Origin: Candidatus Heimdallarchaeota archaeon
GTDB lineage: Archaea; Asgardarchaeota; Heimdallarchaeia; JABLTI01
Direction: 5' to 3'
Length of the DNA stretch: 64,000 nt
NCBI GenBank assembly: GCA_019058275.1
Contig: JAHLVW010000059.1
Span: forward strand, 1-64,000
Of this stretch, positions 1 through 16,779 are shown piece after piece. Each line of letters opens with the position of its first letter. Position 1 is the first letter of the stretch. A program made the position numbers and the translations under genes. The notes under the pieces are model-generated. The model was not told the DNA's origin and did not search any database. It saw only the letters and a program-made list of their open reading frames with translations.

Positions 1-1085
1 CATGAAATGTTAATTATATGTACAATATTTGGAATATTCATTCCCAATTCTAGCAAAGATGTTGCAAATAAAAACCTGATAGTGCCATTATAAATTCCTT
101 TTAGTATGCTTGTTTTTTCTTTGTTGTTTAATTGACTGTTAATGCAAGCAAATGGTGAATGTATTTTTAGAATTTCATCTGGAATATTTGTTTTTTTCTT
201 TAGCAATTCATTGCATTTTGCAACCAACTCACCTACCTTTCGAATATCATCAACAAAGATAACACAAACTCCTTTTACCTTACGCAAGTAGGGATCTATT
301 TTTTCTAAAAGTAGATCTTCTATTGATTCTGGCTGTAGGAGCATTACCCTTACGGAACCTCTTGTAGCATTTCCTGTAATAATTTGGGCAGAAGGAAGAA
401 ATTTATCACGAAAAGTCTCGACTTCTTTTACAGTAGCAGAAGCTAGAATAACTCTTAGCTTAGGATTAATTCTTTTAAAGATAGCAATTATTTCACGAAC
501 ATGAGCAAGATACCCACCTGAACCTGCATGAATTTCATCAACAACAAAAGCACCAGCATTTAACAACCAATCTAAAAAATCATTATTGCTTTCTTTAAAG
601 AAACGATAAAATAGTTTGTCAATCGTTGCTAGAATAATATTAGGTTTGCTCTTTTCTATGAATTCAATTTCCTTTCGTTTTAAATCACCATTGTATCTGC
701 TGTAGGTAATTTTTTTTCCTGTTGCTTCATGAATTTTATTGCAATATTTGGCAATTCGTTTTTCTTGGTCCTCTGCTAATTGCTTAGTTGGATAGATAAT
801 AATAGCACAGTTAATCTTACCATTAATGACCTCCTCCAAAATCGGGAATAAAAATGCTTCAGATTTACCTGAACCTGTTCCGACTGCAAGGAAGCAATCA
901 TTTCCTTTAAGTACAGTTCCAATGGCTTCTAATTGATAAGAGTAAAGCTTATTTGGAAATATTTCTTGAATACTTTTGCCAATTTCCTTTAATCCTACTT
1001 CATCACTACCTATATAATAATCTGATACATAACACTTCGATGGTGGTAAATCAAAAACTGATTTCACGAGTGCTCCATTAGACAT
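1..1085 (-). CDS. SF2 DEAD/DEAH-box helicase, 3' part cut by window edge
   Basis: This gene runs off the left edge; about 361 N-terminal residues are visible. Translation of the minus strand shows a Q-motif-like YSYQLEAI, Walker A GTGSGKSE, motif II DEIHAGSGG, motif III SAT, and a motif V region LFATSLLELGMNIP. The DEIH box followed by a glycine-rich stretch recalls YprA/MrfA- and DISARM DrmA-type helicases, but that subfamily assignment is an inference. The ATG start at 1083-1085 lies 4 bases past the end of the upstream winged-helix gene, so the two are almost certainly co-transcribed. It is the only protein in the six-gene cluster with intact ATPase motifs, which makes it the likely motor. 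Confidence 0.85.
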   Translation of the reverse strand, partial: MSNGALVKSVFDLPPSKCYVSDYYIGSDEVGLKEIGKSIQEIFPNKLYSYQLEAIGTVLKGNDCFLAVGTGSGKSEAFLFPILEEVINGKINCAIIIYPTKQLAEDQEKRIAKYCNKIHEATGKKITYSRYNGDLKRKEIEFIEKSKPNIILATIDKLFYRFFKESNNDFLDWLLNAGAFVVDEIHAGSGGYLAHVREIIAIFKRINPKLRVILASATVKEVETFRDKFLPSAQIITGNATRGSVRVMLLQPESIEDLLLEKIDPYLRKVKGVCVIFVDDIRKVGELVAKCNELLKKKTNIPDEILKIHSPFACINSQLNNKEKTSILKGIYNGTIRFLFATSLLELGMNIPNIVHIINIS

Positions 1086-1088
1086 TTC

Positions 1089-1640
1089 TTATCCCACCAC
1101 TATTCTTGCTCCAACAATGTATTCCCAAATTGAATTAAGCTTGCCCTTCAGATATAGCTCGAATTTCTCATCAAAATCCATTGGTGAATACTTCTCAACA
1201 ATTTCATCAATTACTGATTCAATCATTTCAAATTGCTCATTCACTTCAATAAATTCCAATTGACCAAGCAATTCCTTGATTTCTTTCTGAAGGAGCTCTT
1301 CTTGTTTCTTTATCTCAGAATTTCTCAGAAAATTGTCTGCTATTTCATCAAGCTTCTTATAATCAAATAGCAACTCAGAAGGAAATTCTTTTCCTTTAAT
1401 CAAACAATTATATAGCTTGTTTAGATGAGCCAAAGATTCTTCTTTTATTCCATATCTATATTGATTTTTTCTTCCCAGACGCCAAATCAGCTTGTCTTTT
1501 TGCAATGCCTTGAGTGTAAGATATGTTTCACTGAGAGGTAAGTTTACCTCTATAGAGATCTCTTTTGCGCTCTTAGGATGAATTGCGCCTAACTCATTAT
1601 AATCCTTAAGTAAAAAGAGCATTACTCCAAATTTATCCAT
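1089..1640 (-). CDS. winged-helix protein with C-terminal coiled coil
   Basis: A 183-residue protein. The first 65 residues read as a MarR/TrmB-like winged helix: KSAKEISIEVNLPLSETY, then a recognition helix and a wing around WRLGRKNQYRYG. Residues about 95-150 are rich in Glu, Lys and Leu and probably form a coiled coil. Its start lies inside the end of the upstream 498-residue gene (19-base overlap), and its stop is 4 bases before the helicase start. It could be a regulator of the cluster or a DNA-binding or dimerisation subunit of a complex with the helicase. I do not recognise a specific family. Confidence 0.6.
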   Translation of the reverse strand: MDKFGVMLFLLKDYNELGAIHPKSAKEISIEVNLPLSETYLTLKALQKDKLIWRLGRKNQYRYGIKEESLAHLNKLYNCLIKGKEFPSELLFDYKKLDEIADNFLRNSEIKKQEELLQKEIKELLGQLEFIEVNEQFEMIESVIDEIVEKYSPMDFDEKFELYLKGKLNSIWEYIVGARIVVG

Positions 1641-3118
1641 GATACAGGTAGCTCCAATAATGTTTCACTATATTCTTTAGTAATTGGTGATAATTGACCG
1701 ATTTTTTTGCCATGTTTTAGAAGGTGCTTATCTTCTCTATCAGTAAATAAGAATGCAAGTTTCTCAAAATTAGCAATTTCATGGTTTACCCTTTGATCTA
1801 TATGTTTTGATCTCATCCAAACCAATGGTTGAAAGTCAAGTTTTTGGATTTCCTCTTGACAGATTTGAAAAGTACATTCACCTAAGTCATCCCTTACTTT
1901 TGCTGGCAAATATTCCCATTCTAACATTAACCGCCAAAGTTTAACCGCAAAATTATTCCCCAAGTCTGAACCTCTGATAAGCAGATGTTCCTCTTCTAAC
2001 CTATCACCAATATTCGATAACAAAAGATCAAATTCATCAATTTCTTCCCTGCAAGCATCTCTAAAAGAGGAATAATGTTTTCCTCTATGATAACATGAGC
2101 TTTCGAAAAGTTCTTCCTTCTTCTCATAAAGGATATCGCATCCAAATCTTGAAACGATATAAAGATTCTCTCCTTTGAAACCTCTTAATCGATCAACTTC
2201 ATCTCGAGTAATTTCTTCAGCTAATATTGCATCGACCAGTTTAGTGTGCCCTGCTTTCTTTAAGGAATCGCAAAGATCTAATGGCAATCCCATCCAAGAA
2301 AGGTCTGAATAATAACTGAAATGAGAAAATCCACCAACTCCTAAATAGTTAATATTTTTCTCTTCAAGAAGCTTCCACATTTCTTCCTCATAGAACTGGT
2401 ATGTTGTATTAAATAAGGCATCTGCAGATGTTCGAGCCATACTATTATAATTTCCTACCATGCGTTTTAGTTGGTAGAGTCTGTCAGAAATACGATGGCT
2501 TATTTTAAAATTAAATGGTTCTATCAGCTTGTTAGTAAATTTCCAGAGAATTTCTGCTACAAGACCTTCTGCTGAATTGCATAGCATGTTTGCATGACTA
2601 TGATAACCATAGAGATGTGCATCTCCAATTTTATCTACATACTTTTGTAACGCTCTTTGTTCAGGTATCATTCCTTGCAAGGTAAAAATTATACTAAGAT
2701 CACTTTTTATTGCTGATTTTAAGTAAAGATTGTTGAATCCATTGCTTAATCTTATTGCATCAACATAAATTGCTCTCCTGGGTTCTATTCTTTCGACATT
2801 AAACCAACTGCTTAAGTGAGTTTTTCGTTCATAATAACAACCATGGTCAAGTAATCTTTGTTTTATCTCTTCTTGAATACCTGCATAATCATAGATGAAT
2901 TTAATATCTTCTAGTTTATATCTAATATCTCCAATAAAGAGATCATCATTGATTATTCTTACATCATATCCTTGATATATTGTTATGCCTAAATTAGTTC
3001 TTGCTTTTTCTATCTCTTCAACTCCCAAGCCTGTTAACTGATATATCTGGTCATAAAGTATATGACTGCTATCTTTTATGCATTTTACATATTGTTTTTT
3101 GGTATTTTTTTTATTCAT
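1622..3118 (-). CDS. unrecognised 498-residue protein of the helicase cluster
   Basis: I recognise no family. The protein has no signal peptide or membrane segment and is rich in aromatic and charged residues. An N-terminal part contains an Asp/Arg-rich segment (residues about 110-125, with RAIYVDAIRLS). A histidine cluster GYHSHAN near 172 and a YHRGKH patch near 347 could bind metal, but no catalytic motif stands out. It overlaps the downstream winged-helix gene by 19 bases and follows the zinc-finger gene by 26 bases, so it belongs to the same transcript. A role as sensor or effector in the cluster is a guess from context. Confidence 0.7.
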   Translation of the reverse strand: MNKKNTKKQYVKCIKDSSHILYDQIYQLTGLGVEEIEKARTNLGITIYQGYDVRIINDDLFIGDIRYKLEDIKFIYDYAGIQEEIKQRLLDHGCYYERKTHLSSWFNVERIEPRRAIYVDAIRLSNGFNNLYLKSAIKSDLSIIFTLQGMIPEQRALQKYVDKIGDAHLYGYHSHANMLCNSAEGLVAEILWKFTNKLIEPFNFKISHRISDRLYQLKRMVGNYNSMARTSADALFNTTYQFYEEEMWKLLEEKNINYLGVGGFSHFSYYSDLSWMGLPLDLCDSLKKAGHTKLVDAILAEEITRDEVDRLRGFKGENLYIVSRFGCDILYEKKEELFESSCYHRGKHYSSFRDACREEIDEFDLLLSNIGDRLEEEHLLIRGSDLGNNFAVKLWRLMLEWEYLPAKVRDDLGECTFQICQEEIQKLDFQPLVWMRSKHIDQRVNHEIANFEKLAFLFTDREDKHLLKHGKKIGQLSPITKEYSETLLELPVSWINLE

Positions 3119-3144
3119 TTTTATCTCTCAACTAGTTAATTTAA

Positions 3145-3600
3145 TCAATTTCTCTCCTGTACTAGCTTAAATGCTGAGCCGCATCTTGAGCAACGTGTTT
3201 GAATTGATCCTTGCTGAGGAAACGCAGCATTGCCTAATGCCTTTAGTGGGACCTTTTCTTTACGTTCACTGCAGAATGGGCAAAAATGTGTGAATTCTTC
3301 CTCCCCGTCTGCTGAATAACCATCAAATCTTTTAGGCACTATTTTATTGAATTCATCAATGGTGAAATGGATCTCTAAAATATCTGCCTTTAGAAATGCC
3401 TCGCAAGCAACAGTATTTTTTCTAAGAATCGAGGTTGAAATATAGCCCATTTTGTCTTTTGGAACCTTTCGCTCTGCAGTATCTCTCACTTCTCGCCAAA
3501 AATTGCAGCAGTTTTTATTGAAATGGGTAGCAGTTGCCACATTTCTCAAAGAAATGCTTTGGGATTTCTTTTGTTGAATAGTATGTAACGCTTCTCCCAA
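3145..3600 (-). CDS. zinc-finger protein, possibly the displaced C-terminus of the preceding gene
   Basis: The C-terminal half carries two CxxC pairs, CPFC and CSRC (residues about 108-138), as expected for a zinc ribbon. The N-terminal 28 residues are read out of frame across the 3' end of the preceding gene and look unnatural. From about base 3530 the reading becomes protein-like: NKNCCNFWREVRD. The upstream gene ends with CGNCYPF just before, so deleting one base near 3519-3527 would join the two into one protein with a contiguous Cys-rich segment. It may therefore be a separate gene with a later start (a GTG follows, and ATG at residue 51) or the tail of a frameshifted gene. Confidence 0.5.
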   Translation of the reverse strand: MGEALHTIQQKKSQSISLRNVATATHFNKNCCNFWREVRDTAERKVPKDKMGYISTSILRKNTVACEAFLKADILEIHFTIDEFNKIVPKRFDGYSADGEEEFTHFCPFCSERKEKVPLKALGNAAFPQQGSIQTRCSRCGSAFKLVQERN

Positions 3601-5218
3601 TTGGTGGTTTTACTGTAATAGTGTTTAGTGATAATGAACTGTTTTTTTCAAGATTATCCAATGCTAGTTCAACATCTGAATTCAGTAATGAGAGGTTGAG
3701 AGCAATTTGTGTTCTAGTTAATGGTTGTGTTGCATATTCTAGTTCTTCCTTTATTGCTTGCTCGATAGCTAATCTATCTTTCTTTCCAACTAATGGTTCA
3801 TCTAATATTTCGAGATTTTGAACTATTGCTTTGCTAATGAGAGTGAAGTTCTTTTTAGCTCCTGGTGACATTTGGTCTTGAAAACTTACTAATAATCTAT
3901 AAACTTTAAAAACGGAATAGCTATCTTGTGTTCGTGAAAGAATTTTAGCAATTGTTTCTTCTTCATCATTCTTTTTTGTTTTTAGTCTTCCAAGCAGTAT
4001 TTGTAGATCATTGTAAGCTAATCTTCCATCAGTAAAATTATGAAATATTTCTGAAATAATGTTCCAATCTATAATATCATTTTGTGTTCTGTTTTTGATA
4101 TCTAATAATACGCCAATTGGATCTTCTTGTATTTCTTTGAAATATGTCGATGCTATAAGGAATTTCTTGCCAAATGTGGTAAGAGTATATTTTCCTGAAT
4201 TTCCATTGGCTCTCAAAACTAAAGCGAATTTTCCTAGACTTTGTTGGCACAATTCAAATAAACATTCAGAGGAATATGTTGATTTAAATAATTCCTCAAA
4301 TAAAATTTCTTGAAGAAATTCTGGATTGGTTCTTGACTCGTGAGTATTTTGAAGCAAACGATAGTTAGCTGAATTTTGTATTCGTTTCGTTAATTGTTTT
4401 TTAGTAGGATGACCTGAATAAAGTCTTAGTAACATAGAATATGGGAGAACATATCGCAGATTTTCTTTAATAGAATGTCTATCCATATAAGAACTAAAAT
4501 CAAGCTCATGATCTCCCGTAATTTTAGCTGTTGTTGTTACCTTTAGCATGCTCTTCTGTTCATCTAAAGAAACTATTCCAGGAGAGATATAATGCATTCT
4601 AATGTTTAAGTTATTCATTCTTCTCTTAAAAAACAATATCCCATCTATATCAAAAGTTGTGAAACTCTCTGTAGCTCTTCTTAGAGATCTGTTTTCACCA
4701 AAAGGATCAACAAAAATATACGCATTGGTAAGTGGTAAAGTAACTCTGTTCTTTAATTCTACTACGGAACTTTTCCGATAGAGTAAATTTCGAAGAAGGT
4801 TATCATAGCTTGTAATTATTATACAGTCATTAGCTGAAGGATAACTGTTTCCTTTGAATTTTGAAAAAGTGGAAGCAACACGAATAGCATATTTATCTAT
4901 TGGAGGAGAAATAGTTTCATTTGTTAAGTCATCACTGGAAAAGTTATTCTTTTGATGTGGATTGAGTATGTTGTATATTTTTCTTGCTTCAGCAGAAGTT
5001 CGAACCACAATTAATGATGAAGTATTGACAAAACGAGCATTCAGAAGAGCTAAAGTAACAGCAATTTGCAATTGCTCATCTAGATCTGGTGTTGCAAAAA
5101 GCAAGTCTTCTCTGCAATTAACAGCTTTTCGAATACTTTCTTTGTCAATGTTTGAAGGAAATGGAAAATCTCGCAGAACTGTAGTAATAGCTTTAGGTAG
5201 AGCATTTATGAATCCCAA
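3515..5218 (-). CDS. helicase-like protein lacking Walker motifs, C-terminal winged helix
   Basis: About 567 residues. The order of motifs resembles an SF2 helicase of the Hel308/Ski2 kind. LLFATPDLDEQLQIA sits where Walker A would be, IVVRTSAEAR where motif Ia would be, CIIITSYDNLLR fits motif Ib, and YIFVDPFGE replaces the DExH box. The P-loop lysine and the DE pair are absent, so ATPase activity is unlikely. The last 100 residues look like a winged helix (TRTQIALNLSLLNSDVELAL). I chose TTG at 5218 because AAGGGGGAT lies just upstream and the preceding gene stops there; an earlier start at 5251 is possible. The helicase resemblance is inference from motif spacing. Confidence 0.65.
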   Translation of the reverse strand: MGFINALPKAITTVLRDFPFPSNIDKESIRKAVNCREDLLFATPDLDEQLQIAVTLALLNARFVNTSSLIVVRTSAEARKIYNILNPHQKNNFSSDDLTNETISPPIDKYAIRVASTFSKFKGNSYPSANDCIIITSYDNLLRNLLYRKSSVVELKNRVTLPLTNAYIFVDPFGENRSLRRATESFTTFDIDGILFFKRRMNNLNIRMHYISPGIVSLDEQKSMLKVTTTAKITGDHELDFSSYMDRHSIKENLRYVLPYSMLLRLYSGHPTKKQLTKRIQNSANYRLLQNTHESRTNPEFLQEILFEELFKSTYSSECLFELCQQSLGKFALVLRANGNSGKYTLTTFGKKFLIASTYFKEIQEDPIGVLLDIKNRTQNDIIDWNIISEIFHNFTDGRLAYNDLQILLGRLKTKKNDEEETIAKILSRTQDSYSVFKVYRLLVSFQDQMSPGAKKNFTLISKAIVQNLEILDEPLVGKKDRLAIEQAIKEELEYATQPLTRTQIALNLSLLNSDVELALDNLEKNSSLSLNTITVKPPIGRSVTYYSTKEIPKHFFEKCGNCYPFQ

Positions 5219-5219
5219 G

Positions 5220-5852
5220 TTAATCCCCCTTATTATCTTGTAGAAAATCATTTAGTGTAGGAATTTTAGTTACGCTTGTTCCTTCGCTGAATACTCTAAT
5301 TATGGACTTAAAAGAGTCTTTGATTTCATCTTTTGAAGAGTCTGATAAATCAAAGTTATCAGTTAATTCATTCAGCAAATCTTCTCGAAGGTCTGATAAA
5401 TAATCGTCCTTTGACTTTAAACAATCTAAAATTGACTGAAGATGCTCTTTAACATCTTGTAACTTCTCAATTCTTGTGGAATCTACCTTATGTTTTTGAG
5501 TTAAAGAAACTTCATGATGAGGTTGGAATAAACTCATTATAAACCTGAATAATGGATTATTGACTTTAACTCGATAAGATTGAGTATTTGATCGTGGAAG
5601 CTTTATTAAAATGCCAAATTCTATAAAAGATAAAACTAAACGATCTATTGTTCTAGAAGATAAGGATAATTTTTCATCGAATTTGAAAGTGTTTAATGAA
5701 GGATAATAATATCTACCATGTTTTATAGCGCTGTTAAATAAGTATTTGCAGAAAATTTTCACCAAGTTTGTAATTTTAACCCTTACACTTGGCAATTCCT
5801 TGTAAATGTCCTTTTCTTGAGCTATTGATGATTCCGAAGACATTATTCTCAT
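5220..5852 (-). CDS. winged-helix-like protein, first gene of the cluster
   Basis: A 210-residue protein with a helix-turn-helix-like stretch at residues about 58-85 (FDEKLSLSSRTIDRLVLSF followed by a short wing). The C-terminal half is acidic and helical (EKLQDVKEHLQSILDCL). It is the promoter-proximal gene of the six-gene minus-strand cluster and its stop TAA directly precedes the TTG start of the helicase-like gene, suggesting translational coupling. It may be the autoregulator of the cluster. An ATG also occurs at residue 4 (5843). I do not recognise the family. Confidence 0.6.
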   Translation of the reverse strand: MRIMSSESSIAQEKDIYKELPSVRVKITNLVKIFCKYLFNSAIKHGRYYYPSLNTFKFDEKLSLSSRTIDRLVLSFIEFGILIKLPRSNTQSYRVKVNNPLFRFIMSLFQPHHEVSLTQKHKVDSTRIEKLQDVKEHLQSILDCLKSKDDYLSDLREDLLNELTDNFDLSDSSKDEIKDSFKSIIRVFSEGTSVTKIPTLNDFLQDNKGD

Positions 5853-5918
5853 ACTCTTTCTATCAAGTTTTGTTTAAAAAGCGCTAAATTCGTCAGAAAA
5901 CAGAAAGAAAAATGAATT

Positions 5919-6059
5919 ATGAGGATTAAAATCATCAAAAACCAGAAACAAGATTATGAAGAATATGAAGCATTCGCCAATAGACAAAAAGGCTCAAAAA
6001 ATCAGTCAAAAAAGAAGGCAGGAGAAGGCTTCTTTTTATATAGCGGAAGGTTACTTTAA
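5919..6059 (+). CDS. short Lys-rich open frame, doubtful
   Basis: ATG to TAA, 46 residues, beginning MRIKIIKNQKQDYEEYEAF and strongly basic in the middle (SKKKAGEG). Its composition is more protein-like than random AT-rich sequence, with DYEEYEAFANRQ reading as an amphipathic helix. No ribosome binding site is evident and I recognise no family. It may be the decayed end of a mobile-element gene or chance. Confidence 0.2.
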   Translation: MRIKIIKNQKQDYEEYEAFANRQKGSKNQSKKKAGEGFFLYSGRLL

Positions 6060-6165
6060 GTCCCTTTAGAATTAACAAAATGATGTAATTTTGTATTTTT
6101 TACTGTTTTTTTGTTTTTTTTCTGTAGAGGTACTCACAAACAATTTATCTTCTTTGTTTCTCTCT

Positions 6166-6240
6166 GAAGCTCGTGTCGAAGACGACTGTAAAAGGAGGTC
6201 TCCACGAAGTGGAGGAAATAGGTCGCACGAGGGGAGCGTT
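6166..6240 (+). ncRNA. candidate structured RNA or element end, GC-rich
   Basis: A closing stem CTCGTG (6170-6175) pairs with CACGAG (6226-6231). Inside it are a perfect 6-bp hairpin CTCCAC-GAA-GTGGAG (6200-6214) and a small GTC-GAA-GAC hairpin (6175-6183) that competes with the end of the closing stem. GC content is far above the flanks. The strand is uncertain because the stems are symmetric. It could be an RNA gene, an omegaRNA-like remnant, or a transposon end. No known family was recognised. Confidence 0.35.
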
Positions 6241-6356
6241 CAGTGACTGAGAAGGATGGAATAGGAAATAGTTACACTTTCAGATTTTGAGGGTAATTCT
6301 AAAGTCTTCTTTCTGCTCAACATTTCGGAATTGCTCTTCAAATCTCTAAATTATTT

Positions 6357-7970
6357 CTATTCTTTTTTAATTCGAAAGAATGTTGTTATATATTGATAGA
6401 GAACTGAATTTTGTAGTTGGTTATTTGTTACTTTCACACCAAAATAGTCACTAAGTGTTTTGTGTAAGTCAGTCTTTTTTTCAGCCGGTTGTTTAATAAG
6501 TAGATACCTTCTTCTTATTGCTAAGTTTTTTACTAGATTCAACAATTTCTCATTTGGTTGCAAATCTAATCGTGCCATAGCTTTTCGAGAACGAAAATAC
6601 TCTAATTTATTTTCAACTAGAAACTGCATTAATTGTTCAGAGGTATTTAGTAATTTTGGTAAGAGTTTTACTAGAAGAGGAAGGGGAAAACTATTACGTC
6701 TTTCATAAGCTGCTAAATGTCCTTTAGGTATAGTTAGAAAGTCTGCGAGCTCTTGTTGAGTCCACGACCAAATCTTCCGGACTGTTCTCATGAATTCTGT
6801 ACAATTATTAACATTTAGATTAGGGATGAGTGCAAAATTAAAATAAGATTCACCATTTAGCGTAATGATGGTTTCAAGATTGATATTATCAATTCGGTAC
6901 TTGTTTGGATCTTCAATTAAATGAAGCCTTTTTTTAGAAAGATATCGATGATATTCCTTTCGTTTTAGGGGGTGTCTTGGGTGCAAAAACTTGCTTAGAA
7001 GATCTTTAGAAGTTGCTTTAATATCTAATGAATAACTAGTGCCAAATTCAGTATTGATAGTTCGAGTGGAATATTTTATGTTATAGTTAGTGAGGACTTT
7101 TACAAATTCCTTAACAAAAAACTTAGAAGAAGAGCAGAAATTAACGTTGTTCTTATAACTGCCATCTGCATCTAAAACACCACTCCAAAACTCCCATCGC
7201 AGTTTTTCATCTGAAACAAAAATGAGAGGTTCTCGTAATGCATGGTATTTTTTACCGGTAATAGGTTGATCAGTTAAGAAATTGACCAATCGTACAAGCC
7301 ATTTATTGTTTAAGTGAAGCAACCAGACATTTTTCTCTCCAGTAATTGATCCCTCAAGACTAAAAAGAGACATTGCTAGTGCTTGTAGCATGAGTATATG
7401 TTCTTGTGAGAAATCAACCAATTCAATATTATGATAATTGAGATGACCATCACCAATAACAATTCCGAGGAAATAAGCTAAATCATCTATCAGTTTTGTA
7501 GGCATGCGAAATTGTTCTCCACGAGCAGATTGGAAAGGAACATGATCTTGGCTGAGGAAATCTTGCCAGAAATCACACAACCGGAAAAGAGGAAAAGGTA
7601 ATCGTTGTTGATTCTCTGTATAATCAATGATTTTTTGCTGCCATTTCTTGATAGAGTAATCAATAGCTGTATCTTGGAAATAATAATGGCATCTCTCAGC
7701 TACCTTCAGTGACTGTTTGCGTAAATTGAGCGCTAAATTAGATGGAAGAGAAATATAAGGCAACCGCTGAAGCTGTCGCTTTCCTGCAAGAAAGTCGTGC
7801 TTGCGAACCATAATGGTATAAAGGTTAAGGATGTTTGGTTTAAGGAATATCTTTGATTGTTTGTGCTGTTCTATTAGTTTGTTTGCTGTCAGCCAATCAT
7901 TTTCCTTTGTTGGATTTGAATCTATAAGCAATGGATCCTTTGACCAGTGGAGATGAGTGGTAATTTTCAT
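6357..7970 (-). CDS. free-standing LAGLIDADG endonuclease with XRE-type HTH
   Basis: 537 residues. Two LAGLIDADG motifs are visible: LAYFLGIVIGDG (164-175) and FWSGVLDADG (261-270), each with the acidic residue that binds the catalytic metal. A Cro/C1-type helix-turn-helix follows (about 400-430: TQQELADFLTIPKGHLAAYERR). The C-terminal region is basic. ATG at 7968-7970 has AGGAGG three bases upstream, a strong site. No intein splice blocks (no C-terminal HN) and no rRNA or tRNA flank it, so this is not an intein or an rRNA-intron enzyme at its host site. It lies head-to-head with the broken TnpB gene, with which it may share a mobile element. The nuclease fold is confident; target and host element are unknown. 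Confidence 0.85.
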   Translation of the reverse strand: MKITTHLHWSKDPLLIDSNPTKENDWLTANKLIEQHKQSKIFLKPNILNLYTIMVRKHDFLAGKRQLQRLPYISLPSNLALNLRKQSLKVAERCHYYFQDTAIDYSIKKWQQKIIDYTENQQRLPFPLFRLCDFWQDFLSQDHVPFQSARGEQFRMPTKLIDDLAYFLGIVIGDGHLNYHNIELVDFSQEHILMLQALAMSLFSLEGSITGEKNVWLLHLNNKWLVRLVNFLTDQPITGKKYHALREPLIFVSDEKLRWEFWSGVLDADGSYKNNVNFCSSSKFFVKEFVKVLTNYNIKYSTRTINTEFGTSYSLDIKATSKDLLSKFLHPRHPLKRKEYHRYLSKKRLHLIEDPNKYRIDNINLETIITLNGESYFNFALIPNLNVNNCTEFMRTVRKIWSWTQQELADFLTIPKGHLAAYERRNSFPLPLLVKLLPKLLNTSEQLMQFLVENKLEYFRSRKAMARLDLQPNEKLLNLVKNLAIRRRYLLIKQPAEKKTDLHKTLSDYFGVKVTNNQLQNSVLYQYITTFFRIKKE

Positions 7971-8157
7971 GTCCTCCTAGGAATTAGTTAGGGATTTCAA
8001 TTCTTAAATACCTCTTTGTACAACCATTGAAATAGCTAATTGTTTAACTATTTTTTTAAATTAAAAATTATTTTTTCTAGTATATAATTAATACTTTCGG
8101 TATACTCCTTAGAAAATAGCTATATATCTAGCTGTATATATATTTTGTTGAAGAAAA

Positions 8158-9772
8158 ATGCCCCGAAAAGAGAACCTACTCATCAAAAGCTACCAATTCA
8201 AGTTGCCAAAAGACGAACGTTTGGTTGGTTTCCAAGAACTCACAATAACAGCAGCGAAAAAACTACTCGAAAAACTCTGGTCAAAAGAATGGCTCTTGAA
8301 ACTTGGAACGGGTGACCTCAAAGCCTACAAGATCATCAACGAAGTACAAGTAGAACTAGAAGGCATTTACTTCCCATCTAGAGTTTGAAGGGGAATAGCA
8401 GAATGGGCAGGACGAATAATTAGAGGGCAATACAAACGTTTCTGTTGCTTTAAAGACTGCCTTGAAATAATCAATTGGTTGGGTGAAACATCGAGTAAAG
8501 CAAAATTAGTAGCTGCAGTAATGAAACATTGCCGAGAGACAATAAAAACAAAGAAAGGCAAAAGGACCTATGCACGATACAAGAAAATCATGGTGGAGCA
8601 AACAATAACGATGATTACTAAATGGCTGAAGCAATTGCCTAATATCTTTGAGCTGTTCGCTTACACTGATTTCGTGAAACCAAAAATAAAACGATTCGCT
8701 TTTCCTTTTGGACCAGATGAGGGGAACGCAATACAATACTTCTCTAACAAGGAAAAAGTCCACATTAAAATGAAGCTACCAACTTGTACAAAGCCAAGAA
8801 GCAGAAAAGACTGGGAGTGGATAGAGCAAGAACTAACTACCCCAACAAAAATACGAGCAAAAATAGAGCTAGCTTTATCACTGCAACCTAAAAATCCGAC
8901 CCTGAGAAATCAAAAGCTCAAAGGAGGACTAACCCATTTCTTCCTCCAGTTTCCATGGGAATACCCAAAAACAAGAAAAAAAGAAGAGAATGGTCAAGTA
9001 TTAGCAGTTGACCTTGGCCTGAAAAAAGTCGCGACAATAGTTATATTCGAGAACGGCAAACAAATCTCACATCCGATCACAATCAAGCTCAAAGGCTCGC
9101 AGTATCGCCACGTCGAACGGATTTATAATCAAATCGTTGGTATTCAAAAGCAGCTTGCAAAAGAAAAGAAAGGTAAGCAAACAAAGAGGAGTAAGAATAA
9201 AAGAAGAGGAAAGAAGAAGGCTCTACCAAAAGAGAAATCGTCTGGGAGAGGAATTAGCACATAATTCGACAAGTATCTTGATACTGTTAGCTCTCGAGTG
9301 GTCTTGCTCGAAAATAGTCATAGAAGATCTTCGCTCGTTCAAACCACCAAGAGGTAGGAGAAGCTGGTCAAGAAGACTCTCACAATGGCTGAGAGGAAGA
9401 ATAGCATTCCTTCTAGAATACAAGTGCAAAGAAGCAGGACTAACGCTTTTAAAAGTCTGCCCATGGAATACTTCAAGTCATTGCCCACGCTGCACAGCAA
9501 AGGGAGTGAAAGTTAAGGGACCAAACAATTTGGTCGCTGATAAGAAAGGTCGCTGGTTCCACTGCCCAGAATGCGGTTTTACAGCAGATCGCGACTATAT
9601 CGCAGCTGTGAATATTTACCGAGCAAGCTTTATCGATTATAAAAAAATTAAATGTCTCAAAGACACCAGTCCCGTGCCCTATATGGACCCGGGAACCCTC
9701 TGCTCAACTGTTCCTAGCGGGGGACTAGAGATGAACCATAACGGACTCGTTATGGTAACTGGGAATAGATAA
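8158..9772 (+). pseudogene. tnpB: broken TnpB RNA-guided nuclease of an IS200/IS605-type element
   Basis: Three pieces make one TnpB. Frame one runs from ATG 8158 to an in-frame TGA at 8386-8388, then continues in the same frame (RGIAEWAGRIIRGQYKRF) to 9264. A +1 shift around 9195-9225 moves to the frame that ends at 9772. The RuvC catalytic acids survive: VLAVDLGLKK (motif I), KIVIEDLRSF (II) and DRDYIAAVNI (III), with zinc-finger pairs CPRC and CPEC between II and III. Two independent lesions mean it is very probably inactive unless the breaks are sequencing errors. No TnpA transposase is nearby, so the element would be non-autonomous. AT-rich repeats TAGCTATATA/TAGCTGTATATA at 8117-8141 may mark the left end or promoter. 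Confidence 0.9.
9668..9772 (+). ncRNA. candidate omegaRNA overlapping the tnpB 3' end
   Basis: The 3' end of tnpB is unusually GC-rich and foldable. AGTCCC (9668-9673) pairs with GGGACT (9721-9726), enclosing GGAAC (9692-9696) paired with GTTCC (9710-9714). A perfect 8-bp hairpin CCATAACG-GACT-CGTTATGG lies at 9736-9755, close to the tnpB stop. TnpB guide RNAs are known to derive from the 3' end of tnpB and the element's right end, so position and structure both fit. The guide would be the sequence downstream of about 9770. Confidence 0.5.
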
Positions 9773-9888
9773 ATATTTCAATGATTTTGTCCATAAAAGA
9801 AGGAACGGTTCGCTCTAACCTTAAGCTTTACAGAGATAATGGATTCTCCATTCTATGATGTAAAATGAGTCAAGGGCGAACCTACAAT

Positions 9889-10599
9889 TTACACAAGTTC
9901 TTTTGCTTTTGAGATATTCATATCTATGATATCTTTTGCATTTGGATTGATCTCAAATCCAACATATTTTCTATTTAATTTAATGCATGCAACAGCGGTT
10001 GTGCCATTCCCCATAAAGGGATCGAGAACTAAATCATTTTCTTTACTTGAGTACTTTAGAAGTTTTTCAACTAATTCGTTTGGTAATTTAGTGGAGTTTT
10101 TCTTTTCACCTGGAAGGTATTCACGCTTGATTTCCCAAACATCTTCCGGATAATGATCAACCTTATTGAAGAAATATTTCTTTGGATTTTTCACTAAAAA
10201 CAAGATATGATAGTGACTCGTAACAAATTTCCTTTTTGTAAAAACACCAAATTGGTACTTCCATATGATATGATTTTGTGTTGTAAAACCAGCTTCATCT
10301 ATAGCAATCAAAATATCCTTCAAATTTGTCCAACCTGAGATAATGTAAGCACTACCTGTTTCTTTCAGTACAGGATAAATTGCTTTTATCCATCCTTTAG
10401 AGAATTCAAAGTAATCCTCTCGAGTTATTTCACTATAGCCCTTTACAACAAACTCACTTTTTCTGTTGTACTGGCTACCTTTACCATCAAAACTTATACC
10501 AAAAGGAGGATCAGCAATAATGAGGTCTATGGAATTCTCATCTATTCTTTTGGAGATATTTTCTATACAGTCCTCATAATAGATAACATCGAATACCAT
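9889..10599 (-). CDS. orphan DNA (N4/N6) methyltransferase, beta class
   Basis: Catalytic motif IV ADPPFG lies near the N-terminus (residues about 30-35) and the AdoMet-binding motif I DPFMGNGTT near the C-terminus (about 192-200). This order defines beta-class amino methyltransferases that modify adenine N6 or cytosine N4. TRD-like sequence lies between. I chose ATG at 10599, preceded by AGGTTTGAAG, over TTG at 10608. At about 237 residues it is short but complete. No restriction endonuclease or specificity subunit is adjacent, so it is an orphan enzyme or protection against an unseen element. It neighbours the mobile region. Confidence 0.9.
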   Translation of the reverse strand: MVFDVIYYEDCIENISKRIDENSIDLIIADPPFGISFDGKGSQYNRKSEFVVKGYSEITREDYFEFSKGWIKAIYPVLKETGSAYIISGWTNLKDILIAIDEAGFTTQNHIIWKYQFGVFTKRKFVTSHYHILFLVKNPKKYFFNKVDHYPEDVWEIKREYLPGEKKNSTKLPNELVEKLLKYSSKENDLVLDPFMGNGTTAVACIKLNRKYVGFEINPNAKDIIDMNISKAKELV

Positions 10600-10890
10600 A
10601 AGCTTCAAACCTAGTAAGATTGGATAGTTTTTCTTAAAATGGTTAATATTAAGGTGAGTACATAATACTTTCGATTATCTCTCTACTTGTAACTATTATT
10701 TTTGTTTAGAGAAGTTCTTCTCTTAATTGTCAGGTAAATATCAAATTAAAGATAAGACTTTAGTTAAGTCTATCAACAAACAGCTTAACTTCATGATAAA
10801 TTTGATTTATATAACATAACCTAAAATCATGAATTAAGTGTCATGATTTAAATCACCTTGTTTAGAACCAAAAAACTTGTCGAGGATTAT

Positions 10891-13800
10891 ATGGTTTTGA
10901 CAACTGAGGAAATACAAGAACATATCATTATCAAGGGTGCTAGACAACATAATCTTAAGAATGTCAACCTAGATATACCAAGGAATAAACTTGTGGTCTT
11001 AACAGGTGTATCTGGTTCTGGAAAATCTTCACTAGCGTTTGATACTATTTTTGCAGAAGGACAAAGAAGGTATATTGAATCTTTATCAGCATATGCTAGA
11101 CAATTTATGGCTCAAATGAGTAAACCAGATATTGATTCTATTGAAGGTTTATCACCAGCAGTTTCTATAAGTCAGAAAACAACCAGCTATAATCCGAGAA
11201 GTACAGTCGGAACTGTAACAGAAATTTATGATTTTATGAGAGTGTTATTTGCCAGAATAGGTATTCCTCATTGTCCTAAATGTAACATTGAGATTAAGGC
11301 TCAAACTGTAACTAATATAGTTCAACAAGTTTTGAAAGATTATTCAGGTATGGAAATCATGGTTTTATCACCCATTGTAAGAGATCGAAAAGGTGAATAC
11401 CGTAAAGAGCTCAAAGGGTTGCTTGAATCGGGTTACTCTCGAGCAAGAATCGATTTTGAAATAAAACGCTTAGATGAGATGAAAAGTGAAGAAATGGTTC
11501 TTTCACGATATTTCCGCCATACAATAGAGGCTGTTATTGATAGAATTAGTGTTGATGTAGAAGAAGAAGATCGAATCGCTGAATCAATTGAAACCGCAGT
11601 GACTCTTTCAGATGGATTAGTTATAATAACAACCTTAGAAGCTTCTCAGATAAAGAGACGTCTTACACAAGAGAAGAAGAAAACTGATGATAAAAATGAA
11701 GAGGAGTTAGAGGGAAAAATACTTGAAGAACAAATTGGTGAAATGTTATTCTCTATTCATTTAGCATGTCCTAAATGTGGACTAAGTTTTCCAAAATTAG
11801 AACCAAGAAACTTCTCGTTTAACTCAATACATGGTGCTTGTCCTGATTGTAAAGGACTTGGAACAACTATTGAAGTTGATCCAGAAATTCTAGTTGTAAG
11901 CAAGGAATTATCATTAGCTAATGGAGCGTTAGCAGATTATGATCCTAATACGAAACGATTTAGACTAGCAAATATGAGAATCAATAGGATTAAAGCTATA
12001 GCTGAGAAACTAGAATTTTCAATTGATACTCCTCTTAAAGAACTAACAGATCAACAATGGAATGATTTCTTTTATGGTCCGAAGAAACCAATAATGGTTA
12101 ATTATGAGTTCTCATGGTCGGATAAACGAGGGGGGAGAGGGAAAGGAACTGCAAAGCTAAAATTCTCAGGTTTAGGACCAATAATAATGAATCGTTTTAG
12201 GCGTACAAGCTCGCAATATATTCGAGATTTTATTCAGGAATTTAGCTCCCCTGTGAAATGTTCCAAATGTAATGGTTCAGGTTTAAAGGTTGAAAGTCGA
12301 TCAGTAGTTTTCAAAGGAAAAACTATTGCAGATTTAGCTGGTATGTCAATTACTGATTGCATAGATTTTGTAAATTCAATAAAGCTGTTTAAGAATGAGA
12401 AAAAGATTGCTGAAAATTTACTCAAAGAAATAACAATGAGACTAGAATTTCTCATCAATGTAGGATTACCTTATTTAACTTTAAGCAGAAGAGCAAACTC
12501 CTTATCAGGTGGCGAAAGTCAAAGAATAAGATTAGGGACACAAATTGGATCCAGTCTTGAAAACGTACTATATATTTTAGATGAACCAAGTATTGGATTA
12601 CACAACCGAGATAACTTGAAGCTCATAAAAACCCTTGAGAGCTTGAGAGATAAGGGAAATACTGTACTTGTTTCAGAGCATGATATTGATACAATGCTAG
12701 CTGCAGATTGGTTAATTGATATAGGACCAAAAGCAGGTAACTTTGGTGGAGAAATATTAACTGAAGGACCTCCAGAAATAATCGCTAAGCATAAGAAATC
12801 CATTACAGGGAAATATCTTTCAGGTAAAGCTAAAATTAAAACTCCAAGGAAAAGGAGAATTGGTAATGGCAAGATACTGAAAGTTTTAGGTGCTGCTGAA
12901 AACAACTTGAAAGCTATTGATGTGGAGTTTCCATTAGGACTTTTCATATGTGTTACAGGAGTAAGTGGTTCCGGTAAAAGCTCACTTGTTAGCGATGTAA
13001 TGTGGAAGACCCTTGCCAGAACCCTAAATAGAGCAAAAACTAAGCCTGGAAAACATGTGGGGATGGAAGGCACAGAGCATCTTGATAAGGTAATTGAAAT
13101 AGATCAATCACCAATAGGTTACACTCCAAGATCAGTTCCTGCGACATACACTAAAGTGTTAGATCATATAAGAGATTTTTATTCTGCATTACCCATATCC
13201 AAGGCAAGAGGGTTCAAGAAAGGTAGATTCTCTTTCAATACAAAATTAGGCAGATGTTCTGCTTGTAATGGTTTAGGATATAATAGAATAGAGATGCAAT
13301 TTTTACCTAATATCGAAGTTGAGTGTGAAATTTGTTTAGGGAAAAGATATAGTGCGGAAACTCTTGAGATTAAATATCACGATAAGAGCATTCACCAAGT
13401 ATTGGATATGACTGTTAATAATGCACTCGAATTCTTTAAGGATCATCCAAAAATCTCTACCATCCTAAAAACTATGCAAGAAGTTGGTCTAGGATATATT
13501 AAATTGGGGCAGTCCTCAACTACTTTATCAGGTGGTGAGGCACAACGAATTAAGATTTCTCGAGAGTTAAGTAAGAAAGCCACAGGAAAGACACTTTACA
13601 TTCTTGAAGAACCAACCGTAGGTTTACATTCATATGATGTGAATAATTTATTGGCTGTTCTGAATCGATTAGTAGATGCAGGAAATACAGTTGTTGTTGT
13701 TGAGCATAATTTAGATGTAATAAAGTGTGCAGATTGGATCATTGATCTTGGACCTGAGGGAGGAGAAGCAGGAGGGCAAGTAATAGCAACTGGCACACCA

Positions 13801-16779
13801 GAGAATTTAGTAAAGAATGATAACTCATACACGGGTATTGCTTTAAGAAAAGCCCTTACAGACAAATTAATTGTTGACCCAAGCACCATATCTTCGCGTG
13901 AAAAATCATTTGATAGTGTAAAGTCAAGAAACTCTATTAGTATAACTGGGGCAAGAAAGAACAACCTGAAAAATATCAATCTAAGTATACCTAAAAATAA
14001 GCTAATAGTTATAACAGGAATAAGTGGATCTGGTAAATCCTCACTAGCTCTTGATACCCTCTTTGCTGAAGGACAAAGAAGATTTATTGAATCATTATCA
14101 ACTTATGCTAGACAATTTCTAGGTACAATGGATACTACAAGTGTTGACAAGATTGAAGGATTGTCTCCAGCAATTGCTATAGGCCAGAAATCTGCAGGTA
14201 GAAACCCAAGATCAACTGTAGGTACAGTTACTGAAATTAATGATTATTTGAGATTATTATTTGCAACTGTTGGAATCGCTTATTGTCCAATTTGCAACAA
14301 GGACATAAGTCCTTTGACTTTACAAGAAATGGTAAAAAGAACTCTAAGCCTAGGTGAAGGAACTCGAATTAAGATTATTGCTCCATTGGTAAAGGAATCC
14401 CAAGGAAATTTCAAACCACTAATTAAGGAACTGATTAAGGAAGGTTTTACCCGAGTAATAATTGACAATAAGGATGAAGTTCTATTAGAAGAAATAACAT
14501 TTACAGGTAAAGGAAAAGCTGTTCTAGTTAAAGATAAACTAAATACAATAGAACTTGTTGTAGATCGTTTAGTGGTTGATAAAGATGATATTGGTCAATT
14601 ATATGATTCAATTGAGATTGCTTTGCATAAAGGTGAGGGAGTAGTTAGAATAAGTGCAAATGGAGATACTTTGTCCTTCAGTACAAGAAGAAAGTGTTTT
14701 GACTGTGGAGTAGAATTACCTGAAAAATTCACTCCAAAGATGTTTTCATTTAACACTCATGTAGGAGCATGTGACAAATGTTCAGGGTTAGGAGTGATCA
14801 AGTCAATAGATCCAAAATTATTCATAGCAGATACTAGCAAATCCATCAGGCAAGGAGCTATTGGACCAATTACTAAGAACAAAGTTGAAAGCAATTGGAT
14901 GGTATCATTGATTAAAAGTTTGGGAGATGCTTTTGGATTTACACTAGATACACCAATAAAGGACTTAACTGAGGAACAATATCAAATTCTATTTTACGGT
15001 TCAGATAAGAAATTCAAGCAAGTAAGAGATGTTAAGAGAAGAAATTATGCTTATACCTATGAGAGAGAAAGAGAGTTTCGAGGATTAATACCCATTTATG
15101 AAGGATGGTTATCTAAAACAACATCCTATTGGTGGCTTAATTGGATGGAAAAATTCGTCCGAGTTCAAGAATGTTCTAGTTGCCATGGTACAAGGTTAAA
15201 GCCAGAGTTACTAGCAATTCGTGTAGGTGGCTTAAACATTGATGAAATGACAAAGTGCTCTATCGCTGAAGCTTACAATTTCTTCGGTAATCTATCTTTT
15301 GGAGGAGCGGATCAGATTATAGCTGAAGGATTAATTGAGGAAGTACTAGATAGACTCAAGTTTCTTATTGATGTTGGACTTGATTATCTCACATTGAATA
15401 GGGAAGCTCGTACTCTCGCTGGTGGAGAAGCCCAAAGAATTAGATTAGCAAATCAGATTGGGAATAAACTCGTTGGTGTGTTATATGTTTTGGATGAACC
15501 AAGTATAGGATTACATCCAAGAGATAATCAAAGATTGATTAATACTCTAACTGAGTTGCGAGATTTAGGAAACTCTGTTATTGTAATTGAACATGACGAA
15601 GCAACAATTAGAAGTGCAGACCATATAATAGATTTAGGACCAGGTGCTGGAGTAAATGGAGGAAACATTGTTGCTCAAGGTACAATAGAAGAAATTATGG
15701 GAAGTACAAATTCAATAACTGGAAAATATCTTAGTGGAAAGGAAAACATACCAATTCCTAAGAAAAGAAGAAAAGGTCAAGAATTTTTAACTATAAAAGG
15801 AGTTAGACAAAATAACCTTAGAAGTATAACAGCAAAATTCCCACTTGGTGTCTTTAATTGTGTTACTGGTGTAAGTGGTTCTGGTAAAAGTTCACTGGTA
15901 ATAGAAACATTGTATCGTGCTTTAGCAAAAACCTATCATAGATCAAAAGCAGAAGTAGGAAAATATGATTCAATAGATGGTTTGGAAAGTCTTGACAAAG
16001 TTATTATGATTAATCAGAATCCAATTGGTCGAACACCAAGATCTAATCCAGCGACCTATACTGGTTTGTTTGATCATATAAGAGACCTATTTGCTAAACT
16101 ACCTGAAGCAAAGATGAGGGGGTTCACAAATTCACGCTTTTCATATAATAGCTCTCGAGGGAGATGCCAAATTTGTCATGGCCGTGGAACAAAAGAGATA
16201 GAGATGCTGTTCTTAAGCAATGTTGAGATTATTTGTGAAGAATGTTATGGAAGAAGATACAATCGAGAAACACTTCGAGTGAAATTTAAAGGGAAAAGCA
16301 TTGCAGATGTTCTAGAGATGACAATTGAGGATGCAATGCCATTCTTTGAAAACCAACCAAAGATTCTCAAGATTTTAGAAGTGATGGATGAAGTAGGACT
16401 TGGATATTTACAACTCGGACAATCAGCAACGACATTATCAGGAGGAGAGGCTCAAAGAGTTAAGTTAGCCTCTGAGTTATGCCGACCTCAAACAAAGAAA
16501 ACTTTGTATATTTTAGATGAACCAACTGTAGGTTTATCAGCATATGATGTCCACAAATTATTGAACATTTTGAATAAATTAGTCAATGTTGGTAACACAG
16601 TAATAATTATTGAACACAACCTTGATGTAGTGAAAAGTGCAGATTGGATCATTGATCTTGGACCTGAGGGAGGAGACAAGGGTGGACAAGTTGTTGCTAC
16701 TGGAACACCTGAACAGATAAAAAGTAATGCAAAATCAATAACAGGGCAATATCTAAATGATTATTTGCAACTAAAATAG
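10891..16779 (+). CDS. uvrA: tandem double-length UvrA excinuclease ATPase
   Basis: A 1962-residue protein made of two complete UvrA copies in one chain; normal UvrA is about 950 residues and works as a dimer. Copy 1 (about 1-1015) and copy 2 (about 1018-1962) each have two ABC modules with GxSGSGKSS P-loops (near 40, 690, 1043, 1660), UvrA zinc-finger pairs (for example CPKC, CSKC, CSAC/CEIC) and signature motifs. Odd residues: the second Walker B of copy 1 reads LEEP (905-908) instead of LDEP, and the first signature of copy 2 reads LAGGE (1509-1513) instead of LSGGE. ATG at 10891 follows GAGG; an upstream TTG at 10858 is less likely. It acts in nucleotide excision repair damage recognition with UvrB and UvrC, which are not in this window. 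The gene is of bacterial origin in archaea. Confidence 0.95.

Follow-up and report, generated by a model that had tools for sequence, protein, structure and literature searches.

At the very start of a contig from a Candidatus Heimdallarchaeota genome (G000) lies a compact group of genes on the minus strand, and the question it raises is what kind of system these genes make up. The window analysed here covers 64,000 nucleotides (G000:C52:1-64000), its position 1 being contig base 1. A preliminary description had read the group as six genes resembling a defence or element-control island. We consider it probable that the cluster is instead the core of a transposon family in a Heimdallarchaeota genus, termed here ‘Cas1L elements’, with a Cas1-like protein (Cas1L) as the inferred integrase.

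The minus-strand reading frames do overlap or lie a few bases apart, as first described, but they amount to five genes and not six. The operon's first gene (5220..5852, minus strand) encodes a predicted HTH protein of 210 aa whose position is conserved in type-A copies; a family search with it returned nothing above cut-off. It is followed by a Zn-ribbon protein gene (3145..5251, minus strand) that spans two open reading frames of 578 and 151 aa, formerly counted as separate genes. The homologue on C33 of the same genome is a single 709-aa ORF, and its tblastn alignment with the window switches frame at about 3518–3525, the site of the frameshift. The sequence plainly shows the paired cysteines of a zinc ribbon. 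The 578-aa part had been taken for a degenerate helicase; hhalign against the helicase family gave a probability of 0.2% and an E-value of 0.3, although the best alignment was collinear, and this reading was abandoned.

Downstream come the gene for the 498-aa Cas1L (1622..3118, minus strand), that for a winged-helix-like protein of 183 aa (1089..1640, minus strand) and that for an SF2 DEAD-box helicase (3..1085, minus strand; PF00270, 4.6e-29; PF00271, 2.3e-12). Weak TrmB/HTH matches were obtained for the 183-aa protein, and the two winged-helix-like proteins proposed earlier show weak matches, all of them below cut-off. The helicase belongs to SF2 as proposed but is not intact, since its C-terminal part is lost at the contig end; intact homologues are 781–799 aa long, and in one helicase relative an MrfA-type Zn-binding domain (MZB) scored above cut-off. 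The full operon, seen elsewhere in the same genome (C33:92925-100617 and C84:117-8031), has the order HTH protein, Zn-ribbon protein, 498-aa protein, winged-helix (wHTH) protein, helicase and metallophosphoesterase (MPE), the last of these being a calcineurin-like phosphoesterase. The same gene order recurs in many loci, which places the coherence of the cluster, as originally surmised, far beyond chance. Scattered genes or matches to housekeeping families, named beforehand as grounds for giving the cluster up, were not what was found.

The 498-aa protein, previously of unknown family, is as judged by sequence comparison a divergent homologue of Cas1 in which the catalytic triad is intact. Residues E184, R209, R213, N237, G263, H266 and D281 are among those invariant in nine paralogues with identity down to 17%, and E184, H266 and D281 follow one another and are spaced as in the Cas1 triad. 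When the family was aligned by hhalign with 13 ordinary Cas1 proteins of the same class, E-values of 4e-7 to 2e-6 and probabilities of 88–89% were obtained over most of the length, five negative control profiles each giving 1% or less. In these alignments the E of ‘AEG’, the H of ‘GFSH’ and the D of ‘PLDL’ fall on the E, H and D of Cas1. Bridging family members in G003:C364 and G000:C48 match PF01867 above cut-off, and residues 1028–1276 of a helicase-Cas1L fusion from another Asgard genus (G177) match Cas1 in PADLOC (E 9e-7). A single-sequence HMMER/Pfam search with the window protein gave no Cas1 match, and an hmmsearch of PDB sequences with the Cas1L profile gave no relevant match. The AlphaFold model, computed from an alignment of two sequences only, had a pLDDT of 32. 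Two other candidates for the family, an AHH/HNH nuclease (E 0.03) and the DNA primase large subunit (E 0.06), were rejected, each being under cut-off and matched by a single member only.

Upstream of the operon, a minus-strand gene (6357..7970) encodes LAG, a LAGLIDADG endonuclease-like domain (PF14528, above cut-off) combined with an HTH. Both LAGLIDADG acidic motifs are intact in all eight copies compared; LAG adjoins Cas1L in most loci of the window's genus; the G177-type loci described below showed no LAG. Next to it lies a tnpB gene of the IS605 OrfB/Cas12f-like type (8158..9772, plus strand). It has a frameshift near 9158–9189 and an in-frame stop near 8388 and is probably a pseudogene, and this copy of the element has probably decayed; an intact TnpB homologue scores 70.6 bits with PF07282. 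The gene is followed by the element terminus ACCGTTCCTTCTTTTATGGACAAAAT (9777..9809, minus strand), which was recognised from the same terminus in five other flank contexts and from the empty sites of relatives. The ACC in it is presumed to be a target copy. The visible portion of the element thus extends over positions 1..9809 (no strand assigned) and ends at the TnpB-side terminus common to other elements, while its phosphoesterase-side end is missing, off the contig start.

Evidence for mobility comes from comparing loci. In blastn alignments homology broke off at one constant base on each side, beside TnpB and past the phosphoesterase gene, and the flanks were unrelated. The TnpB end is ACCGTTCCTTTTTTTATGGACAAATAGGACAT and the opposite, phosphoesterase-side end is GGGTCGCAACTGTTGCCCTAAAATATGGACAAATAGGACAT; the two have an 18-bp inverted subterminal repeat in common. 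Two elements are complete, with lengths of 11163 bp (G008:C17) and 11178 bp (G007:C9), i.e. ~11.2 kb, and they encode TnpB, LAG, a Zn-ribbon-Cas1L-wHTH fusion and a helicase-MPE protein with no other sizeable gene. No complete type-A element carrying TnpB was seen. Near-identical elements (97–99%) occupy non-homologous places in G000 (C27/C101) and G003 (C286/C104). Empty sites were located with joined flanks, and the target repeat was read from the empty-site alignment, not from comparison of flanks. Uninterrupted orthologous sites were found in G003:C236 (96%), G000:C69 (94%) and G007:C99 (85%), with ACCC exactly at the junction in all three. An occupied site reads flank-ACC, then the element from GTTCC... 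onwards, then ACCC-flank, and this 3-bp ACC repeat is present at 3/3 sites with empty orthologues.

The ~11.2-kb relatives have therefore inserted as units at ACCC, in three independent insertions. What the window contains of such an element is the TnpB-side part, ending at 9809; the contig edge cuts off the other end, and the second boundary is taken from the relatives. Fixed ends together with three orthologous empty sites identify a transposon and not a defence island. The link to the adjacent mobile region made in the preliminary description was correct, both parts forming one mobile element. Short MITE-like repeats with both element ends were also observed in G007 (C5:1-317, the starts of C1, C26 and C30, and others), and many G007 contigs break within such repeats.

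Used as a query against the host genome, the C84 helicase matched ten places at 26–62% identity, including the window; some of these are fragments. Searched with alignment A2, all nine genomes of one Heimdallarchaeota genus contain Cas1L family members, 54 hits in total with 16 of them in G000, and the remaining 50 genomes of the class gave none. Across 228 genomes of the phylum it occurs, beyond the window's genus, in three other genera only, mostly inside much larger proteins. G003 was grouped in the window's genus by kinship in the genome search, and its contig C300 corresponds to JAUVZH010000027.1 (Candidatus Heimdallarchaeota archaeon CSMAG_1263; 100% identity over 13600 bp). A contig profile search with the close Cas1L alignment returned JAUVZH010000027.1 alone, i.e. 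the G003:C300 locus, and no relatives of the element were found in viral contigs, phages or plasmids. In G082 (L167-L169) we observed giant ORFs of 2090–2600 aa with a Cas1L-like domain, two of which adjoin a distant TnpB homologue.

Within the genus, the architecture varies around Cas1L. On C93, C106 and in type-B copies the Zn-ribbon and 498-aa proteins form one polypeptide, which in some includes the wHTH; in several relatives the 183-aa winged-helix-like protein is likewise joined to Cas1L, and several type-B copies have the helicase fused to the phosphoesterase. Type C/D loci encode a Zn-ribbon-Cas1L protein of ~620–700 aa and a PD-(D/E)XK Cas4-like protein, without a recognised helicase; HTH proteins and LAG are also present in L076, L077, L090, L105 and similar type C/D loci. 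The TnpB beside LAG is replaceable, either by p722 (NERD nuclease-like domain) with p228 (HEAT-like) or by a pair of RAMP genes, and Cas1L is retained where this module has been swapped. In some TnpB-less type-A elements the MPE end abuts a tRNA gene (L005:14773-14849, L080:6560-6636, L007:1-120, L073 and L086). These were identified by ARAGORN as tRNA-Pro (C33) and tRNA-Lys (G003:C145), and by eye only as tRNA-Lys-like (C84) and tRNA-Ala-like (G008:C11 and G007:C110). In one locus of the host genome, LAG and the helicase operon are separated by the gene for a 976-aa protein (L012:3101-6031, G000:C17); it looks by eye like a restriction-methylation enzyme and is possibly cargo.

RAMP-type relatives were found in another Asgard genus, outside the window (G177/G178; L162-L166, L170 and L171). 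Here, a helicase-Cas1L protein of ~1325–1345 aa (two ORFs in one locus) is followed by two genes of ~270 aa, the first of which encodes a RAMP protein (37.6 bits; cut-off 22.1). Downstream of each ~270-aa gene lies a ~140-nt repeat whose structure of 25 pairs is conserved, nine of the pairs showing double-sided changes; no Rfam family matches this RNA, and loci of the window's genus yielded no copy of it. After the internal RNA copies come ~40 nt that match the region 25–49 nt upstream of the first RAMP gene. In one group the mismatches fall on positions 3, 9, 21, 27, 33 and 39 (plus 12), in the other on 2, 8, 14, 20 and 32 (plus -3 and 24); the chance of such one-phase mismatches (6/7 and 5/7) is about 8e-4 and 1e-2, calculated by hand. 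Mismatches at every sixth base are known for guides held by Cas7-type proteins, and because of this pattern the RAMP pair and the ~140-nt RNA are likely to form an RNA-guided complex. As a lesser possibility, the internal-copy matches may be what is left of a gene fragment that was duplicated.

The terminal RNA copies bear on the choice of insertion site. The L166 element (G177), flanked by an 8-bp near-repeat, has an empty orthologous site in G178:C28, and the sequence directly after its terminal RNA matches this empty site at 31/32 positions, starting from the insertion point. For the terminal copies of L164 and L171, matches to host DNA nearby scored higher than shuffled controls; the copy of L163 was marginal and that of L162 gave no match. 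A guide-like match of L165 in G178 was discarded, the stretch being merely its orthologous flank. One strong case and two weaker ones thus suggest a role for the RAMP-associated RNA in selecting the site. In the occupied G177 allele (L166:13311-13331 region, L202) the start of the host gene matches the guide at 25/30 positions, versus 31/32 in the empty-site version, as though recoding or drift had changed the target once the element was in place. With Tn7-like CAST these relatives would share RNA-guided choice of insertion site; they differ in using a Cas1-like protein in place of TnsA/B/C, in having no CRISPR array and in possessing a dedicated ~140-nt structured RNA.

How might such an element move? 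Cas1L is the sole integrase candidate inside it, since the complete elements hold no other sizeable unassigned gene, and the best inference is that Cas1L is the strand-transferring integrase that would join the element ends to the target. The Zn-ribbon and wHTH proteins, together with the 18-bp subterminal inverted repeats, may assemble the ends, and the helicase and phosphoesterase may unwind or trim DNA. TnpB reaches the element end, so that a guide RNA would run on into the flank; with this guide it could cut the re-emptied site (GGGT, then guide), whereupon the element would be copied back. The place of the TAM relative to the guide is expected from known TnpB biology, and by analogy the GGGT before the flank in the empty site would hold that position. 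LAG may act as a second site-selecting nuclease or as a regulator.

Several of these features would also fit an IS200/IS605-like TnpB element moved in trans by a Y1 transposase, with the Cas1L-helicase operon as cargo, possibly defensive. TnpB lies at one element end as in IS605, beside a short target motif, GGGT, at the expected TAM place, and a flank-derived guide is plausible. The repeat is only 3 bp long and short elements with identical ends exist in G007; on these grounds it is possible that a host enzyme mobilises the ends in trans. However, no TnpA is present within the complete elements, neither of which has an unassigned ORF of a size suitable for a Y1 transposase. Their length of ~11 kb, their Cas1L operon and their 18-bp inverted subterminal repeats are foreign to IS605. 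Moreover, Cas1L and the helicase persist when p722/p228 or RAMP genes replace TnpB, and in G177 the helicase-Cas1L protein and the RAMP genes make up nearly all of a 6.4-kb unit. We therefore regard Cas1L-helicase cargo on an IS605-like element as unlikely.

It is much less probable still that an operon for DNA repair or defence, akin to DISARM, Lhr or MrfA, stands beside mobile genes by chance. The pairing of helicase and phosphoesterase is reminiscent of the Lhr-core/PdeM (ligase-associated) repair cluster, where an SF2 helicase is next to a small metallophosphoesterase, the MZB domain occurs in relatives, and the helicases of BREX, Druantia and Dpd give weak cross-matches. But the core sits inside a transposed unit, as the empty sites demonstrate, and occurs in many copies, a genome having as many as 16 Cas1L loci. 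Neither a ligase nor an exonuclease gene accompanies it, and its helicase reaches 84 bits with TIGR04121 against a cut-off of 850. The helicase matches are generic only: for the nine proteins of the C84 copy, PADLOC revealed no DISARM, Druantia, Dpd, BREX or Zorya signature beyond generic SF2-helicase cross-hits and weak HTH/CARF matches, in agreement with the earlier statement that no named defence system fits. Cas1L and the Cas4-like PD-(D/E)XK and RAMP proteins of sister loci might point to a CRISPR-like immune system so far unrecognised, with the cluster as its adaptation module, but this is hardly credible given that the units themselves transpose, that neither a spacer array nor Cas2 was noticed beside Cas1L among the ORFs and repeats examined and that ordinary cas1 loci exist elsewhere in the host genome (C26 and C76).

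A transposon with a putative Cas1-type integrase invites comparison with casposons, which are thought to be the source of CRISPR Cas1. Both are multicopy mobile elements of archaea in which a Cas1 homologue is the only integrase candidate, and some Cas1L relatives have a Cas4-like nuclease or adjoin tRNA genes. In contrast to casposons, Cas1L elements have no B-family DNA polymerase, duplicate 3 bp where casposases duplicate 14–15 bp, and carry a helicase, a phosphoesterase, a Zn-ribbon protein and TnpB or RAMP modules, and Cas1L itself is too divergent for single-sequence Cas1 models. Two features of casposons, PolB and the long duplication, are therefore lacking, and so is one of IS605, a TnpA within the element.

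We put at about even the chance that the window element belongs to a wider Asgard transposon superfamily that combines a Cas1-type integrase and an SF2 helicase with swappable modules, TnpB with a guide RNA or Cas7-like RAMP proteins with the ~140-nt RNA, which would choose or defend the site. If this is true, a single type of mobile element would unite parts of both CRISPR modules, with Cas1L accompanied by helicases, Cas4-like nucleases and, together with candidate guide RNAs, TnpB or RAMP proteins. Cas1 and the class 1 (RAMP) effectors would both have a natural source in such elements. For class 1 effector complexes, the origin has been called murky (PMC6452270). The elements would also offer a new route to insert ~11 kb of DNA at defined sites. 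The archaea that carry Cas1L elements are close to the eukaryote lineage. The open-access literature yielded casposons and the aloposons of Heimdallarchaeum but no Asgard element joining Cas1L, a helicase and TnpB or RAMP modules. Aloposons are likewise mobile elements of Heimdallarchaeia; they are defined by giant genes encoding 3000–6000 aa at tRNA sites, and their description mentions neither Cas1 nor TnpB (PMC8813620).

Outside the element, the window continues with a gene for an N6/N4 DNA methyltransferase (9889–10608; PF01555, 8.8e-45), which begins 80 bp beyond the element end, and with a 1973-aa ORF (10858–16779) that looks like two UvrA proteins joined head to tail.
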